Source: Natrinema longum
GTDB lineage: Archaea; Halobacteriota; Halobacteria; Halobacteriales; Natrialbaceae
Assembly (NCBI RefSeq): GCF_017352095.1
Contig: NZ_CP071463.1
Span: forward strand, 2,480,001 to 2,544,000
Length of the DNA stretch: 64,000 nucleotides
Reading direction: 5' to 3'
Part shown: positions 28,151-36,591 of the stretch, one piece after another
Numbering within the stretch: the first letter of the stretch is position 1
Layout: each line of letters starts with the position of its first letter
Translations under genes and position numbers: made by a program
Notes under the pieces: model-generated
The model's database searches: none
What the model saw: only the letters and a program-made list of their open reading frames with translations
Told to the model about the DNA's origin: nothing

Positions 28151-29395
28151 ATGATGACGGACACGGACGGGGAGATTCCGGTGACGATCATCTCGGGGAG
28201 CCTGGGTGCCGGCAAGACGACGCTGCTCAATCACCTACTCTCGAGTGCCGACCGGACGCTGGCGGTGCTGGTCAACGACATGGGCGAGGTCAACGTCGAC
28301 GCCGAACTCGTCGCCGAGGGGTCGGAGCTCGACGTCGACGATGGCGTCGCGGAGCTCTCGAACGGCTGTATCTGCTGTGAACTCCAGGACGACCTCGAGA
28401 CCGCCGTGGTCAGGCTGGCCCGCGATCGGTCGTTCGATCACCTCGTCGTCGAGTCCTCGGGAATCTCCGAACCCGCCCCCGTCGCGCGGCTGTTCACCAC
28501 GGAATCCCGCGTCGCGGCGCTCTACGACGTCGACACGCTCGTGACCGTCCTCGACACGCCCGCGTTCCTCGAGGCCTTCAGCGGCGAGGGCACACCGGAA
28601 CGGCGGGGAGACGAAGACGAGCGGCCGCTTTCGGACCTGCTCGTCGAACAGGTCGAAGTCTCGAACCTCGTCTTACTCAACAAGGCCGATCTGTGTTCGG
28701 ACGCGGCGCTCACGGAGGCCGAGGAGCTCGTCCGTGCGCTCCAGCCGGAGGCCGAGACGATTCCGACGGAGTTCTCGGCGGTCGATCCCGATCGGCTACT
28801 CGCCGCTGGCCTGTTCGATCCCGGCCGTGTGAACGACCTACCGGGCTGGAAACGGGCGCTCGAGTCGGCCGACGACGATCACGGCCACGACGCCGAGGAG
28901 GGCCACGGCGAGCACGGACACGACGAGGACGGCGACCGTCACGGCCACCACCATCCCGACGAGGTGTACGGCGTCACCTCGTTCGTCTACCGGTCTCGCC
29001 GGCCGTTCCACCCCGAGCGGTTCGCGACGTTCCTCCGAAACCTCCCGCGGGCGATCGTCCGCGCGAAGGGGACCGCTTGGATCGCGGACACCGAGATGCG
29101 AGTCTCGATCGCGCAGGCCGGGCCGTCGGTCAGGGCCACCGCACAGGGGCCCTGGATCGCGAGCCTCCCCGAGGTCGAGCGCGACATGTATCGGTCGAAC
29201 CGACCGGACCTCGAGTGGGACGAGGACCACGGCGATCGCCGGACCGAACTCGTCTTTATCGGGACTGACTACGACGAGGCGGCGCTCCGGGCGACGCTCG
29301 AGGACGCGCTCGTCACCGACGAGGAGCGGGAAACGGCGTTCGACGGCCCCTTCCCTACCGAACAGGGCGAGGAGGTCGTCATCCGGGAGCCCTGA
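28151..29395 (+). CDS. CobW/COG0523-family metallochaperone GTPase
   Basis: A 414-residue protein. The Walker A motif GSLGAGKTT is near residue 16, the family's metal site is NGCICC near residue 74, followed by ESSGISEPAP and the specificity loop NKAD. A His/Asp-rich linker (residues ~245-275, e.g. HGHDAEEGHGEHGHDED) precedes the C-terminal CobW domain (YGVTSFVYRSRRPFHPERF). Such proteins hydrolyse GTP to insert Zn, Co or other metals into clients; the His-rich loop suggests Zn, Co or Ni. The next ATG (28154) is an equally possible start. It is end-to-end convergent with a small zinc-ribbon gene. Confidence 0.9.
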   Translation: MMTDTDGEIPVTIISGSLGAGKTTLLNHLLSSADRTLAVLVNDMGEVNVDAELVAEGSELDVDDGVAELSNGCICCELQDDLETAVVRLARDRSFDHLVVESSGISEPAPVARLFTTESRVAALYDVDTLVTVLDTPAFLEAFSGEGTPERRGDEDERPLSDLLVEQVEVSNLVLLNKADLCSDAALTEAEELVRALQPEAETIPTEFSAVDPDRLLAAGLFDPGRVNDLPGWKRALESADDDHGHDAEEGHGEHGHDEDGDRHGHHHPDEVYGVTSFVYRSRRPFHPERFATFLRNLPRAIVRAKGTAWIADTEMRVSIAQAGPSVRATAQGPWIASLPEVERDMYRSNRPDLEWDEDHGDRRTELVFIGTDYDEAALRATLEDALVTDEERETAFDGPFPTEQGEEVVIREP

Positions 29396-31379: not shown

Positions 31380-31820
31380 CCGACAGCCCGGTGATCGTCG
31401 ACGGTACTGCCGATGTCGGTTCGAGCCTGCAGACAGTTGCAGGGAGGGGGAGGACGCGCGTGCGTCACCGTGCAGAGGGGGAAGGGGTGTGTGCGTCACC
31501 GCGAATGGCCGACTCCACACGACACTGTCCAACAGCCGAGAGGACGATGTGACCCTTTGGAGAGAGTACCTGCTCCGATGGGGCAATCCCGGTGTTGATC
31601 GTTCGTTACGATTCGAGATTGAATCCTGTCGATCCGTCGCATAGCTCCCGACTTTTCGGACGAACAGTCGCCGAGTACGACGGCTGTCGGAGAAATGGCT
31701 TTCGGGCGTGCGGGTCAGAGTTTCCGGTACAAAAAATTATTTTTGCTATAGGAGACCGTATCCAATTGGATACGAAACCGTTATCAGTCATACGACCCAC
31801 TGTCCAGACGACAGAACACT
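31380..31820. other. Intergenic region holding the suf promoter
   Basis: No gene is supported in these 441 bases. The last ~100 bases are AT-rich (acaaaaaattatttttgct near 31730-31747) and carry an 18-bp perfect palindrome at 31757-31774, followed by CGAAACCGTTAT, a BRE/TATA-like run at 31773-31784. A direct repeat of GTGCGTCACCG occurs near 31460 and 31490. Confidence 0.6.
31757..31774. promoter_or_regulatory. 18-bp perfect palindrome in the suf promoter
   Basis: CGTATCCAATTGGATACG is a perfect inverted repeat 46 bases before the sufC ATG. It lies between an AT-rich block and a BRE/TATA-like run that it partly overlaps, a position suited to a repressor or activator. The DtxR-like regulator encoded beyond sufD is an obvious candidate binder. 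Confidence 0.65.
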
Positions 31821-32726
31821 ATGGCACGCCTCGAACTCAACAATCTGCATGCGGAAGTGGCGGAGGGCGACGAGACAATTCTCGAGGGCGTCGATCTCGA
31901 GGTCCAGTCGGGCGAGATCCACGCGCTGATGGGACCGAACGGCTCCGGGAAGTCGACGACTGCGAAAGTCATCGCCGGCCACCCGGCCTACGAGGTAACC
32001 GAGGGCGAGGTCCTGCTCCACCTCGAGGACGAGGAGTTCGGCGCGGACATCGAGATCGACGAGGACCAGCGCACCTGGAACCTGCTCGACCTCGAGCCCA
32101 ACGAGCGCGCCGCACTCGGCATCTTCCTTGGCTTCCAGTACCCGGCCGAGATCGAAGGCGTCACGATGACGAACTTCCTCCGAACGGCGCTGAACGCCAA
32201 AATCGAGGAGCGCGAGGAGCTCTTCGAGGACGAGGACGTCGAGGAAGACGACGACGACGAGGGCTTCGAGTCCTCGCCGATGGAAGGCCCCGCGGACGAG
32301 GGCGAAATCGGCGTCGCCGAATTCCAGGGGATCCTTCAGGAGAAGATGGAGCAACTGGAGATGGACGAGAAGTTCGCCCAGCGCTACCTCAACGCCGGCT
32401 TCTCCGGCGGGGAGAAGAAACAGAACGAAGTGCTGCAGGCCGCCATCCTCGAGCCCTCGATCGCCGTCCTCGACGAGATCGACTCCGGGCTCGACATCGA
32501 CCGACTGCAGGACGTGTCCAACGGGATCAACGCCCTTCGCGACGAGCAAGGCACCGGGATCCTCCAGATCACCCACTACCAGCGCATCCTCGACTACGTC
32601 GAGCCCGATCACGTCCACGTGATGCTCGACGGCCAGATCGCGAAAAGCGGCGGTCCCGAACTCGCCGAGAAGCTCGAGGACAAGGGGTACGACTGGGTCC
32701 GCGAAGAGGTCTACGGCACCGCGTAA
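31821..32726 (+). CDS. sufC: Fe-S cluster assembly ATPase SufC
   Basis: A 301-residue ABC-type ATPase, longer than the usual ~250. Walker A is GPNGSGKST near residue 36, the signature is FSGGEKKQNE, and Walker B is IAVLDEIDSGLDID. An extra acidic insertion (about residues 128-160, with runs of Glu and Asp) accounts for the added length and is typical of salt adaptation. SufC powers the SufBCD scaffold that builds Fe-S clusters in the cytoplasm. It is the first gene of sufCBD. Confidence 0.95.
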   Translation: MARLELNNLHAEVAEGDETILEGVDLEVQSGEIHALMGPNGSGKSTTAKVIAGHPAYEVTEGEVLLHLEDEEFGADIEIDEDQRTWNLLDLEPNERAALGIFLGFQYPAEIEGVTMTNFLRTALNAKIEEREELFEDEDVEEDDDDEGFESSPMEGPADEGEIGVAEFQGILQEKMEQLEMDEKFAQRYLNAGFSGGEKKQNEVLQAAILEPSIAVLDEIDSGLDIDRLQDVSNGINALRDEQGTGILQITHYQRILDYVEPDHVHVMLDGQIAKSGGPELAEKLEDKGYDWVREEVYGTA

Positions 32727-32784: not shown

Positions 32785-34215
32785 ATGAGTTCCGATCAAG
32801 ATCACCTGAAAGAGACAGACACTGAGGCCCGGTTCGAGTTCAAGAAGGAGGAGAACGCCGCGGTCCGATCCGGCAAAGGCCTGACCGAGGAGGTCATTCG
32901 TATGATCTCCGAGGACAAGGACGAGCCCGACTGGATGCTCGAGCGACGCCTCCGCGCCCTCAAGCAGTATCACAACATGCCGATGCCGTCCGACTGGCCC
33001 GGCATGCCCGATCTCTCCGAGCTGGACGTCGAAGAGATCATTCCCTACATCCGCCCGGACGTCGACAAGCGCGAAGGCGTCGACGACTGGACGGAGCTGC
33101 CCGACGAGATCAAGGACACGTTCGACAAGCTCGGCATTCCGGAAGCGGAGAAGAACGCCCTCTCGGGCGTCGGTGCCCAGTACGAGTCCGAGGTCGTCTA
33201 CCAGAACATGCAAGAGCAGTGGGAGGAGAAAGGCGTCATCTTCTGTAACATGGACGAGGCCGTCCGGGAGCATCCCGAGCTCGTCAAAGAGCACTTCATG
33301 ACGACCTGCGTGCCGCCGAGCGACAACAAGTTCGCCGCGCTGCACGGGGCCGTCTGGTCCGGTGGGTCGTTCGTCTACGTTCCGGAAGACGTCACCGTCG
33401 AAATGCCCGTTCAGGCTTACTTCCGAATGAACTCGGAGGGGATGGGCCAGTTCGAGCACACGCTCATCATCGCCGAGGAAGGGTCGGAAGTCCACTACAT
33501 CGAGGGCTGTTCCGCACCCAAGTACGGCACTCACAACCTGCACTCGGGCGGCGTCGAAGTCTTCGTCGGCGAGGACGCTCACGTGCAGTACTCGACCGTG
33601 CAGAACTGGTCGAAGAACACCTTCAACCTGAACACCAAACGCGCCATCTGCGAGGAGAACGGCACGATGGAGTGGGTCTCGGGCAGCATGGGATCGAAAG
33701 TGACCATGCTCTACCCGTGTACGATCCTCAAGGGTCGCGGCTCGACCGACACTCACATCACCATCGCCCTGGCGGGCGAAGGGCAGGACATCGACACTGG
33801 CGCGAAGGTCTACCACAACGCGCCCGAGACGAGTTCGACCATCGAGTCCAAGTCGATCTCCAAGGACGGCGGCCGCACCAACTACCGCGGCCTCGTCCAC
33901 ATCGCCGACGGTGCCGAGAACGCGAGCACCGCCGTCGAGTGTGACGCGCTGATGTTCGACAACGACTCGACCTCGGACACCATGCCGTACATGGAGATCG
34001 AGGAGTCGAAGGTCGACGTCGCTCACGAGGCGACCGTCGGCAAGATCGGCGACGAGGACATCTTCTACCTCCAGTCGCGTGGACTGGACGACGACGACGC
34101 CAAGAAGATGATCGTCGCCGGCTTCATCGAGCCGATCACGGAAGAACTGCCGATCGAGTACGCGGTCGAACTCAATCGCCTCATCGAACTCGAGATGGAG
34201 GGGAGCCTCGGATAA
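32785..34215 (+). CDS. sufB: Fe-S cluster scaffold protein SufB
   Basis: A 476-residue protein, normal for SufB. It contains the right-handed beta-helix core (SGGSFVYVPEDVTVEMPVQA, EGSEVHYIEGCSAPKYGTHN in parts) and the conserved end LPIEYAVELNRLIELEMEG. Several Cys are kept, including in EGCSAP and LYPCTILKGRG. SufB receives persulfide sulfur and iron to form nascent clusters with SufC and SufD. It follows sufC by 58 bases; sufD starts one base after its stop. Confidence 0.95.
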   Translation: MSSDQDHLKETDTEARFEFKKEENAAVRSGKGLTEEVIRMISEDKDEPDWMLERRLRALKQYHNMPMPSDWPGMPDLSELDVEEIIPYIRPDVDKREGVDDWTELPDEIKDTFDKLGIPEAEKNALSGVGAQYESEVVYQNMQEQWEEKGVIFCNMDEAVREHPELVKEHFMTTCVPPSDNKFAALHGAVWSGGSFVYVPEDVTVEMPVQAYFRMNSEGMGQFEHTLIIAEEGSEVHYIEGCSAPKYGTHNLHSGGVEVFVGEDAHVQYSTVQNWSKNTFNLNTKRAICEENGTMEWVSGSMGSKVTMLYPCTILKGRGSTDTHITIALAGEGQDIDTGAKVYHNAPETSSTIESKSISKDGGRTNYRGLVHIADGAENASTAVECDALMFDNDSTSDTMPYMEIEESKVDVAHEATVGKIGDEDIFYLQSRGLDDDDAKKMIVAGFIEPITEELPIEYAVELNRLIELEMEGSLG

Positions 34216-34216
34216 T

Positions 34217-35437
34217 ATGAGCGCAGGAACACAGGTACACGCCAATCTGACGGAGGAACAAGTACGCGAGATCAGCGACGGACTCGACGAGCCCGACTGG
34301 CTCACGGAGACCCGTCTCGAGGCCCTCGAAGCCCTCGAGGACCTCGACATGCCAGACGTCATCCGGACGCCGGGTCGTGACTGGACGAACCTCCACGATC
34401 TGGACTTCGAATCCCTCGTCGATCCGCTGAACGCGGCCGAAAACAAAGACCAGGTCGGTCCCGACGAGGCCGAGGTTCTGTCCTGGAGCGACGCCGTCGC
34501 CGAGCACGAGACACTCCTGAAGGAGCACTTCGGCACCGTCGTCGATCCCCAGGAGAACTACCTGACGGCGCTCTCGACGGCTCTGTTCAGTACCGGAACG
34601 GTCATTTACGTCCCCGAAGGCGTCGACGCCGAGGACGTCGCCATCCGAACCGAGCAGAACTCCCGCTCGCTGTTCAACTACACGCTCGTCGTCACCGAGG
34701 AGTCGTCCTCGGTCACGATCCTCGAGCGTCAGTCGACGGGTGCAGAGCAGGACGAACAATACTACAGCGGCGTCGTCGAAGTCGCCGCCGGCGAGAACAG
34801 CTACGTCCAGTACGGCAGCCTCCAGAACCTCTCGGAGGAGGCCTACAACTTCACCGTCAAGCGCGGGGTCGCCGACACCTACGCCACGATCGACTGGATC
34901 GAGGGCAACCTCGGGACCCAACTCACGAAGACCGAGGTCTCGACGACTCTCAGCGGCGATAGTTCCGAGACGCAGATCGTCGGTGCCTTCTACGGCCACA
35001 ACGATCAGCACTTCGACCTCGACGCGAAGGTCTGGCACCGTGCCGAACACACGACCGCCGACCTCGTCACCCGCGGCGTCACCGACGACGTCGCCCGCTC
35101 GGTCTACGAGGGGGTTCAAGACGTCGGCACCGACGCCTGGGACACCAGCTCCTACCAGCGCGAGAACACGCTGATGCTCAGCGACGAGAGCGAGGCCGAC
35201 GCCTCCCCGAAGCTGATCATCAACAACCACGACACCGAGGCCAGCCACTCCGCCACGGTCGGCCAGGTCGACAAGGAGGACCTGCTGTACATGACCTCCC
35301 GCGGTATCGACCCGCGCTCTGCCCGCAACATGCTCGTCGAGGGCTTCTTCGTGCCCGTCCTCGAGGAGATCGACGTCGACGAACTCCGTGAGGACCTCGA
35401 AGCACTGATCGGCGCGCGGCTTCGCCAGCGCGACTAA
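34217..35437 (+). CDS. sufD: Fe-S cluster assembly protein SufD
   Basis: A 406-residue SufB paralogue with the same beta-helix layout (STGTVIYVPEGVDAEDVAI, EDLLYMTSRGIDPRSARNMLVEGF in parts) and the usual shorter length. It pairs with SufB on the SufC dimer and is needed for iron entry. The start is one base after the sufB stop, so translation is coupled. Confidence 0.95.
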   Translation: MSAGTQVHANLTEEQVREISDGLDEPDWLTETRLEALEALEDLDMPDVIRTPGRDWTNLHDLDFESLVDPLNAAENKDQVGPDEAEVLSWSDAVAEHETLLKEHFGTVVDPQENYLTALSTALFSTGTVIYVPEGVDAEDVAIRTEQNSRSLFNYTLVVTEESSSVTILERQSTGAEQDEQYYSGVVEVAAGENSYVQYGSLQNLSEEAYNFTVKRGVADTYATIDWIEGNLGTQLTKTEVSTTLSGDSSETQIVGAFYGHNDQHFDLDAKVWHRAEHTTADLVTRGVTDDVARSVYEGVQDVGTDAWDTSSYQRENTLMLSDESEADASPKLIINNHDTEASHSATVGQVDKEDLLYMTSRGIDPRSARNMLVEGFFVPVLEEIDVDELREDLEALIGARLRQRD

Positions 35438-35531: not shown

Positions 35532-36026
35532 ATGAGTCTGGGACAGCGTGTCTCGAGCGACCACCAGCTGACCCGATTGCTGCAGATCGGGGTCGTGCTG
35601 GAGGAACTCGTCGAGTCACGCGCCGCCCACCACATCGAGTCCTTACCGCCCGAAGAGCGGGCGGACTTCGATGCGGAGGTCGAAGAGTTGCTCGCGGAGG
35701 CCGCCGCGGAGTCGGCCGATCACCGCGAGCGACTCGAGGCGCTGATCGACGATCTCGAGGCGGAGACCGTCGGATACGAGGAGATAAATGCCCTGGTCGA
35801 CGCCCAGTATGGCCCGCCGGAGGATACGGACGGCGTCCTCTACGATCAGTTGGCAAACGAGGAGACGGCCTACAAGTTCTACGACGATTTGATCGAAGCG
35901 ATCGAGGCCTCCGACGCCGAGTTCGCGGTCGACCGTGACCGACTCCTCGAGACGCTGACGGCCATCCGTGAGGAAGAAAAGGAGGGGGTCGAGGAAGTGA
36001 CCGAGATCATGGAGCACAGAGCATGA
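35532..36026 (+). CDS. Ferritin-like four-helix protein
   Basis: A 164-residue helical protein. The first helix (LLQIGVVLEELVESRAAHHIE) and second helix (LLAEAAAESADHRERLEALI) carry an E...ExxH arrangement like ferritin/rubrerythrin diiron sites. A third (LANEETAYKFYDDLIEAI) and fourth (REEEKEGVEEVTEIMEH) follow. The second ExxH is less clear, so iron binding is likely but not certain. It lies between sufD and a DtxR-like regulator on the same strand, which places it in iron or Fe-S housekeeping. Confidence 0.75.
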   Translation: MSLGQRVSSDHQLTRLLQIGVVLEELVESRAAHHIESLPPEERADFDAEVEELLAEAAAESADHRERLEALIDDLEAETVGYEEINALVDAQYGPPEDTDGVLYDQLANEETAYKFYDDLIEAIEASDAEFAVDRDRLLETLTAIREEEKEGVEEVTEIMEHRA

Positions 36027-36156: not shown

Positions 36157-36591
36157 ATGAACACTGCAGATCAATATCTCAAGGCGATCTACCTGGCACA
36201 GCGCATCGAGGACGGCCCCGCATCGACCGGCACGCTCGCGGACTTACTCGAGGTGAGTCCGGCCAGTGTCAACGAGATGATCGGAAAACTCGAGGACCGC
36301 GAACTCGTCGACCACGAGAAGTATCAGGGAGCCAGCCTGACCGACGAGGGGCTCGAGCGCGCTCACAACGCCCTCCAGACCTACTGCATCATCGAGCGGT
36401 TCCTCGCGAACGTCCTCGAGGTCCAGGAGTTTCGCGACGAGGCTCGTGCCCTCGAGAGCGTCATCGACGACACCGTCGCGGAGCGACTCGATACGATCAT
36501 CGACCGGCCCGACCAGTGTCCCGACTGCTTCGACGCCGAGCGGGACTGCTGTGAACTGCTCGAGGTCGAGGCCAGCGGACGGGCGGACTGA
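36157..36591 (+). CDS. DtxR/SirR-family regulator lacking canonical metal ligands, Cys-rich
   Basis: A 144-residue protein with the DtxR layout: N-terminal winged helix (LKAIYLAQRIEDGP, then VSPASVNEMIGKLEDRELVD) and dimer domain (ERFLANVLEVQEFRDEARAL). Lined up with Corynebacterium DtxR, most metal ligands are changed: Met10 to Gln6, His79 to Tyr76, His98 to Arg93, Cys102 to Arg97, His106 to Ser101; Glu83 and Glu105 remain as Glu80 and Glu100. Five cysteines appear instead (77, 121, 124, 131, 132), four of them in the tail CPDCFDAERDCC. It lacks the SH3-like third domain. Located after suf and a ferritin-like gene, it may sense Fe-S or redox state rather than free Fe/Mn; that is inference. 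Confidence 0.8.
   Translation: MNTADQYLKAIYLAQRIEDGPASTGTLADLLEVSPASVNEMIGKLEDRELVDHEKYQGASLTDEGLERAHNALQTYCIIERFLANVLEVQEFRDEARALESVIDDTVAERLDTIIDRPDQCPDCFDAERDCCELLEVEASGRAD

Follow-up and report, generated by a model that had tools for sequence, protein, structure and literature searches.

Organisation of the locus

The window, that is, the whole stretch of 64,000 nucleotides of Natrinema longum DNA that was analysed, contains suf genes, a ferritin-like protein gene and a gene for a DtxR-family regulator, all on one strand (Table 1).

Table 1. Features of the regulator gene and its surroundings, with positions given within the window.
Feature	Position	Strand	Description
Palindrome GTATCCAATTGGATAC	31758..31773	.	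Perfect; at -63 to sufC; abuts a BRE-like CGAAA
sufC	31821..32726	+	ABC_tran match only; named from its position beside sufB/sufD
sufB	32785..34215	+	Profile search
sufD	34217..35437	+	Profile search
Ferritin-like protein gene	35532..36026	+	Most constant troR neighbour; weak Rubrerythrin match in 6/16 members
troR orthologue	36157..36591	+	144 aa; wHTH aa 2-59, dimerisation domain aa 62-123; no SH3/FeoA domain
Gln6 codon	36172..36174	+	DtxR Met10 / MntR Asp8 position; Gln in 134/134
Tyr76 codon	36382..36384	+	DtxR His79 position; Tyr in 134/134
Cys77 codon	36385..36387	+	Invariant; about one helical turn ahead of Glu80; helix 4
Glu80 codon	36394..36396	+	DtxR Glu83 / MtsR site 1 Glu80 (PMC9253540); Glu in 131/134
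Arg93, Arg97, Glu100, Ser101 region	36433..36459	+	DtxR His98, Cys102, Glu105, His106; Glu100 the sole ligand left
Cysteine tail CPDCFDAERDCC	36517..36552	+	Cys121, Cys124, Cys132 invariant; Cys131 variable

The ferritin-like gene lies directly upstream of the regulator gene and on the same strand in at least 138 of 140 orthologue loci, whereas sufB is found nearby in at least 114 of the 140 and sufC in at least 103; the counts are minima, as part of the loci are cut short. The preliminary description had set the regulator beside suf and a ferritin-like gene. Both do adjoin it, but suf is the less constant companion, and on these counts suf linkage was rejected as the defining context. For the ferritin-like protein itself, no Pfam match passed the cut-off, and profile searching of the PDB returned no ferritin. 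Further upstream in the window, an open reading frame at 28151-29395 begins with a P-loop, contains a histidine-rich stretch and by eye resembles COG0523-type metal chaperone GTPases.

The palindrome upstream of sufC, given as 31757-31774, had been put forward for a test of binding by the regulator. The genome holds a single perfect copy; three more sites differ from it at 3 positions, where the control has one such site, and the element occurs in 32 of 37 Natrialbaceae-type sufC upstream regions and in none of 68 others. With one perfect copy and a distribution confined to one family, its use as a TroR operator is unsupported, and nothing connects TroR to it. A CGAAA/TTAT element at about 31771-31789, with equivalents elsewhere, is conserved in haloarchaeal sufC upstream regions and resembles a BRE and TATA box.

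Identity of the regulator

The regulator gene corresponds by orthology to HVO_0863 of Haloferax volcanii. HVO_0863 is named as TroR of the DtxR family (PMC11349517), and TroR is reported as the primary regulator of iron homeostasis. The gene itself is therefore already known, an orthology that the preliminary description had missed. A published primer pair flanks HVO_0863 with an amplicon of 1767 bp (PMC6801745). Exact matches to the forward primer occur in three Haloferacaceae genomes, all of one genus, and in a Haloferax-type genome (G111) its site precedes the troR orthologue by about 560 nt; the reverse primer had no match in the genomes examined, G111 included. An amplicon of this length would take in the DtxR gene together with its ferritin-like neighbour. 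On the strength of the forward primer site, this length and its being the DtxR gene of that stretch, the DtxR gene was taken as HVO_0863. Orthology of gene and position refers to HVO_0863, and the role of iron regulator is reported for TroR of H. volcanii and Halobacterium salinarum.

A Pfam search of the open reading frame gave PF01325 at 62.5 bits and PF02742 at 45.8 bits, each above its cut-off, and its PDB matches by sequence alignment include ScaR, MntR, DtxR and IdeR. In iron sufficiency, TroR reportedly represses iron uptake and induces storage. Matches to the Rrf2 domain PF02082 (16.1 bits against a cut-off of 30) and to the cyanobacterial SufR equivalog TIGR02702 (13.6 bits against 178.8) remained below threshold.

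A search of 145 Halobacteria genomes with TroR gave a match in all 145. The best match in three of them (G001, G006 and G020) is a paralogue rather than TroR, and in two others (G015 and G132) the troR gene is split or lies at a contig end. Conservation counts refer to an alignment of 134 distinct TroR orthologues, exclusively from Halobacteria. In a tree, the TroR orthologues form a single clade with support of 88/94.

Loss of the canonical metal ligands

Proteins of the DtxR family are classic sensors of Fe(II) or Mn(II), and the ligand numbering of DtxR and MntR is established for these families. The primary site is built from Met10, Cys102, Glu105 and His106 in DtxR and from Asp8, Glu11, His77, Glu99, Glu102 and His103 in MntR, and the ancillary site of DtxR from His79, Glu83 and His98. 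In alignments to PDB sequences, Gln6 of the N. longum protein falls in the column of DtxR Met10 and ScaR Asp7, Tyr76 in that of DtxR His79 and ScaR His76, and Arg93, Arg97, Glu100 and Ser101 in those of DtxR His98, Cys102, Glu105 and His106, with Glu80 at DtxR Glu83 and Cys121 at ScaR/MtsR Cys123. These columns agree with the five substitutions put forward in the preliminary description (Met10, His79, His98, Cys102 and His106 to Gln6, Tyr76, Arg93, Arg97 and Ser101).

Of the DtxR/MntR ligands, only Glu80 and Glu100 are left. The loss of the primary-site ligands is conserved across the 134 orthologues, and an ordinary Mn/Fe site is found in the sequence of none of them. Glu100 is present in all 134, and the substituted positions vary to some degree (Arg93 in 120, Arg97 in 100, Ser101 in 94). 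TroR shares both Pfam domains and the predicted fold with DtxR, IdeR and MntR, and differs from them in lacking the canonical ligands and an SH3/FeoA domain. As judged from these alignments, it is a DtxR/MntR family member by fold without the canonical metal activation ligands.

Four invariant cysteines

Cys77, Cys121, Cys124 and Cys132 are each present in 134 of 134 orthologues, and Cys131 is a cysteine in only 46 of the 134. Both TGC and TGT are common at every invariant position, and therefore the conservation acts at the level of the protein. The corresponding DNA pattern of the tail, CP[DE]C[FY]D..[DE]..D.C, occurs once per genome in 46 of 59 Halobacteria genomes, at troR, with none in the control. 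Four of the five cysteines originally singled out are thus conserved in the alignment, whereas the compact C-terminal CPDC...CC cluster of four was an overstatement. With Cys131 so often replaced, the site is better described as a set of four (Cys4) than as a CC cluster, and the fourth partner is Cys77 on helix 4.

The position of these residues can be related to structurally known relatives. In the streptococcal manganese regulators MtsR and SloR, metal site 1 consists of His76, Glu80, Cys123 and His125 and is required for regulation, and site 2 of SloR consists of Asp7, Glu99, Glu102 and His103 (PMC9253540); metal site data are also available for ScaR (PMC4805248). Site 1 aligns with Tyr76, Glu80, Cys121 and Asp123 of TroR, so that the glutamate and the cysteine are kept, both histidines are changed, and Cys77 and Cys124 are added nearby. 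Site 2 is gone save for one glutamate. TroR shares its DtxR fold with these regulators but has three further cysteines and no FeoA-like domain. Because Cys121 and Glu80 align with site 1 of MtsR, SloR and ScaR, Cys4 would represent a remodelling of a known allosteric site. AlphaFold2 models from two runs were good for the wHTH and, outside the tail, matched the MntR, ScaR and DtxR structures, while the C-terminal tail was modelled poorly (pLDDT about 35-60). The four cysteines would meet in space, with Cys77 close to the tail.

The four cysteines fall within the count of three or four conserved cysteines able to ligate an Fe-S cluster. One full-text search, too wide in scope to establish absence, brought up no report of an Fe-S DtxR-family protein. 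The combination of Cys4 with lost canonical ligands is described here for TroR from its sequence, and its novelty is not certain.

Paralogues and the order of events

The ligand positions of relatives, read as a row, show how the two sets of residues are distributed. Outgroups of the same phylum have EHEHCEH, a canonical set that is complete or nearly so, with Cys121 mostly present and a downstream CC often found. A haloarchaeal paralogue (L126, L127, L128 and L131-L134) has the full canonical MHEHCEH together with Cys77, Cys121, Cys124 and Cys132 at the same places as in TroR, which itself reads QYERRES with Cys4. A third branch (L130) reads RSQRREP with Cys4, so that Cys4 persists where all else changes, and Idr-type paralogues have DHEHDEH without Cys4.

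In the tree, which was built on few columns and has moderate support, TroR, L130 and the SirR-like proteins split from the rest at 97/92, and the Cys4 paralogue falls between this group and the outgroups with Idr, at 98/87. Since this paralogue combines the canonical set with Cys4 and is placed between the outgroups and TroR, the cysteines would have come first and the ligand loss later. The order suggested, with moderate support from the tree, is an early Cys121, followed by completion of Cys4 and then loss of the canonical site. The earlier idea that the cysteines were gained as a replacement when the ligands were lost is rejected in view of the paralogue with both sets and of the tree, in which Cys4 predates the loss.

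Several further family members were encountered. A SirR-like DtxR paralogue of 128 aa in the same genome (C1:682142; L003, L249:8137-8523) has neither canonical ligands nor cysteines, and a Dps/ferritin gene (PF00210) adjoins it on the opposite strand. A Cys4 variant in G016 (L247:7961-8380) has Gln80 and no canonical ligands, and is divergent from three adjacent genes of Dps-like appearance (L247:8764-10472), the first of which was confirmed as PF00210. In several lineages (L096, L098, L101, L107, L112, L114, L116 and L119), troR has an Idr-type DtxR gene no more than about 8 kb away.

The three genomes without TroR retain suf, with no ferritin-like or TroR-type gene detected next to it. G001 and G006 (L240, L241, L286, L287) carry the Cys4 paralogue that has kept all canonical ligands, and in G020 the paralogue adjoins a distant ferritin-like homologue. 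COX1 had no match in G001 and G006 and one match in G020, and for this reason any link to anaerobic life is weak.

Possible sensing mechanisms

On balance, TroR probably senses iron at Cys4, where the metal would be bound either in an Fe-S cluster or as Fe(II) held by thiolates. Cysteines would have accumulated at the ancestral Mn/Fe site 1 at a time when the canonical site was still functional, and the canonical site would then have been discarded. The four thiolates would form one site where the dimerisation helix joins the C-terminal tail, and this site, not the lost canonical one, would control DNA binding. With iron plentiful, the site would be filled and DNA binding favoured; a drop in the supply of iron or clusters would empty it and lift repression.

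As to the form of the iron, Cys4 may tentatively be pictured as holding an Fe-S cluster, which would make TroR a RirA/IscR-like iron sensor on a DtxR scaffold, and a mononuclear Fe(II)-thiolate is the less likely form. The likeness proposed to RirA and IscR, Fe-S regulators of the Rrf2 family, and to SufR lies by analogy in the sensing of iron or cluster status through a cysteine-bound Fe-S cluster; TroR belongs to a different protein family, and its Fe-S cofactor is putative. In RirA, a cluster ligated entirely by protein was more stable, and iron sensing was lost (PMC10510648). This loss of sensing with a fourth protein ligand argues against a plain four-cysteine iron sensor in TroR, unless one of the cysteines is not a ligand.

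A further point against the iron reading is that CPxC followed by a further cysteine is a common zinc knuckle. Cys4 could be a structural Zn(Cys)4 that holds the tail on the dimerisation domain, with TroR regulated through another site, a partner protein or its abundance, which seems rather unlikely. The invariance of all four cysteines fits such a structural role, as does the paralogue, in which Cys4 stands beside a canonical site that is still intact. Against zinc stand the reported function of TroR in iron homeostasis, the lack of any other visible conserved metal site, and the placement of Cys121 on a known allosteric site.

Oxidative stress could instead act on the cysteines as a thiol-disulfide switch, with disulfides releasing or tightening DNA binding. 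A thiol-based regulator of the TrmB family acts in the oxidative stress response of H. volcanii (PMC9426492), and Halobacterium troR mutants show growth and stress phenotypes (PMC5605881). Four invariant cysteines exceed the need of a disulfide switch, however, and the Cys4 paralogue is kept in two genomes without a detected heme-copper oxidase, which leaves a redox switch improbable. Least credible is a metal-free, degenerate regulator in which the charges of Arg93 and Arg97, next to Glu80 and Glu100, stand in for that of the metal and lock the active form, leaving the cysteines a minor part: arginine predominates at positions 93 and 97 among the 134 orthologues and the SirR-like paralogue of the same genome lacks both ligand sets, but the four cysteines are strictly conserved while positions 93, 97 and 101 drift.

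Significance

Nearly all haloarchaea possess TroR, an iron regulator with four invariant cysteines and without a recognisable primary site. If iron is indeed sensed through Cys4, sensing would have moved from N/O ligands to thiolates inside one protein family, and the Cys4 paralogue would be a living intermediate that retains both sets. The sensing mechanism of TroR is open to direct test with four point mutations in Haloferax volcanii.
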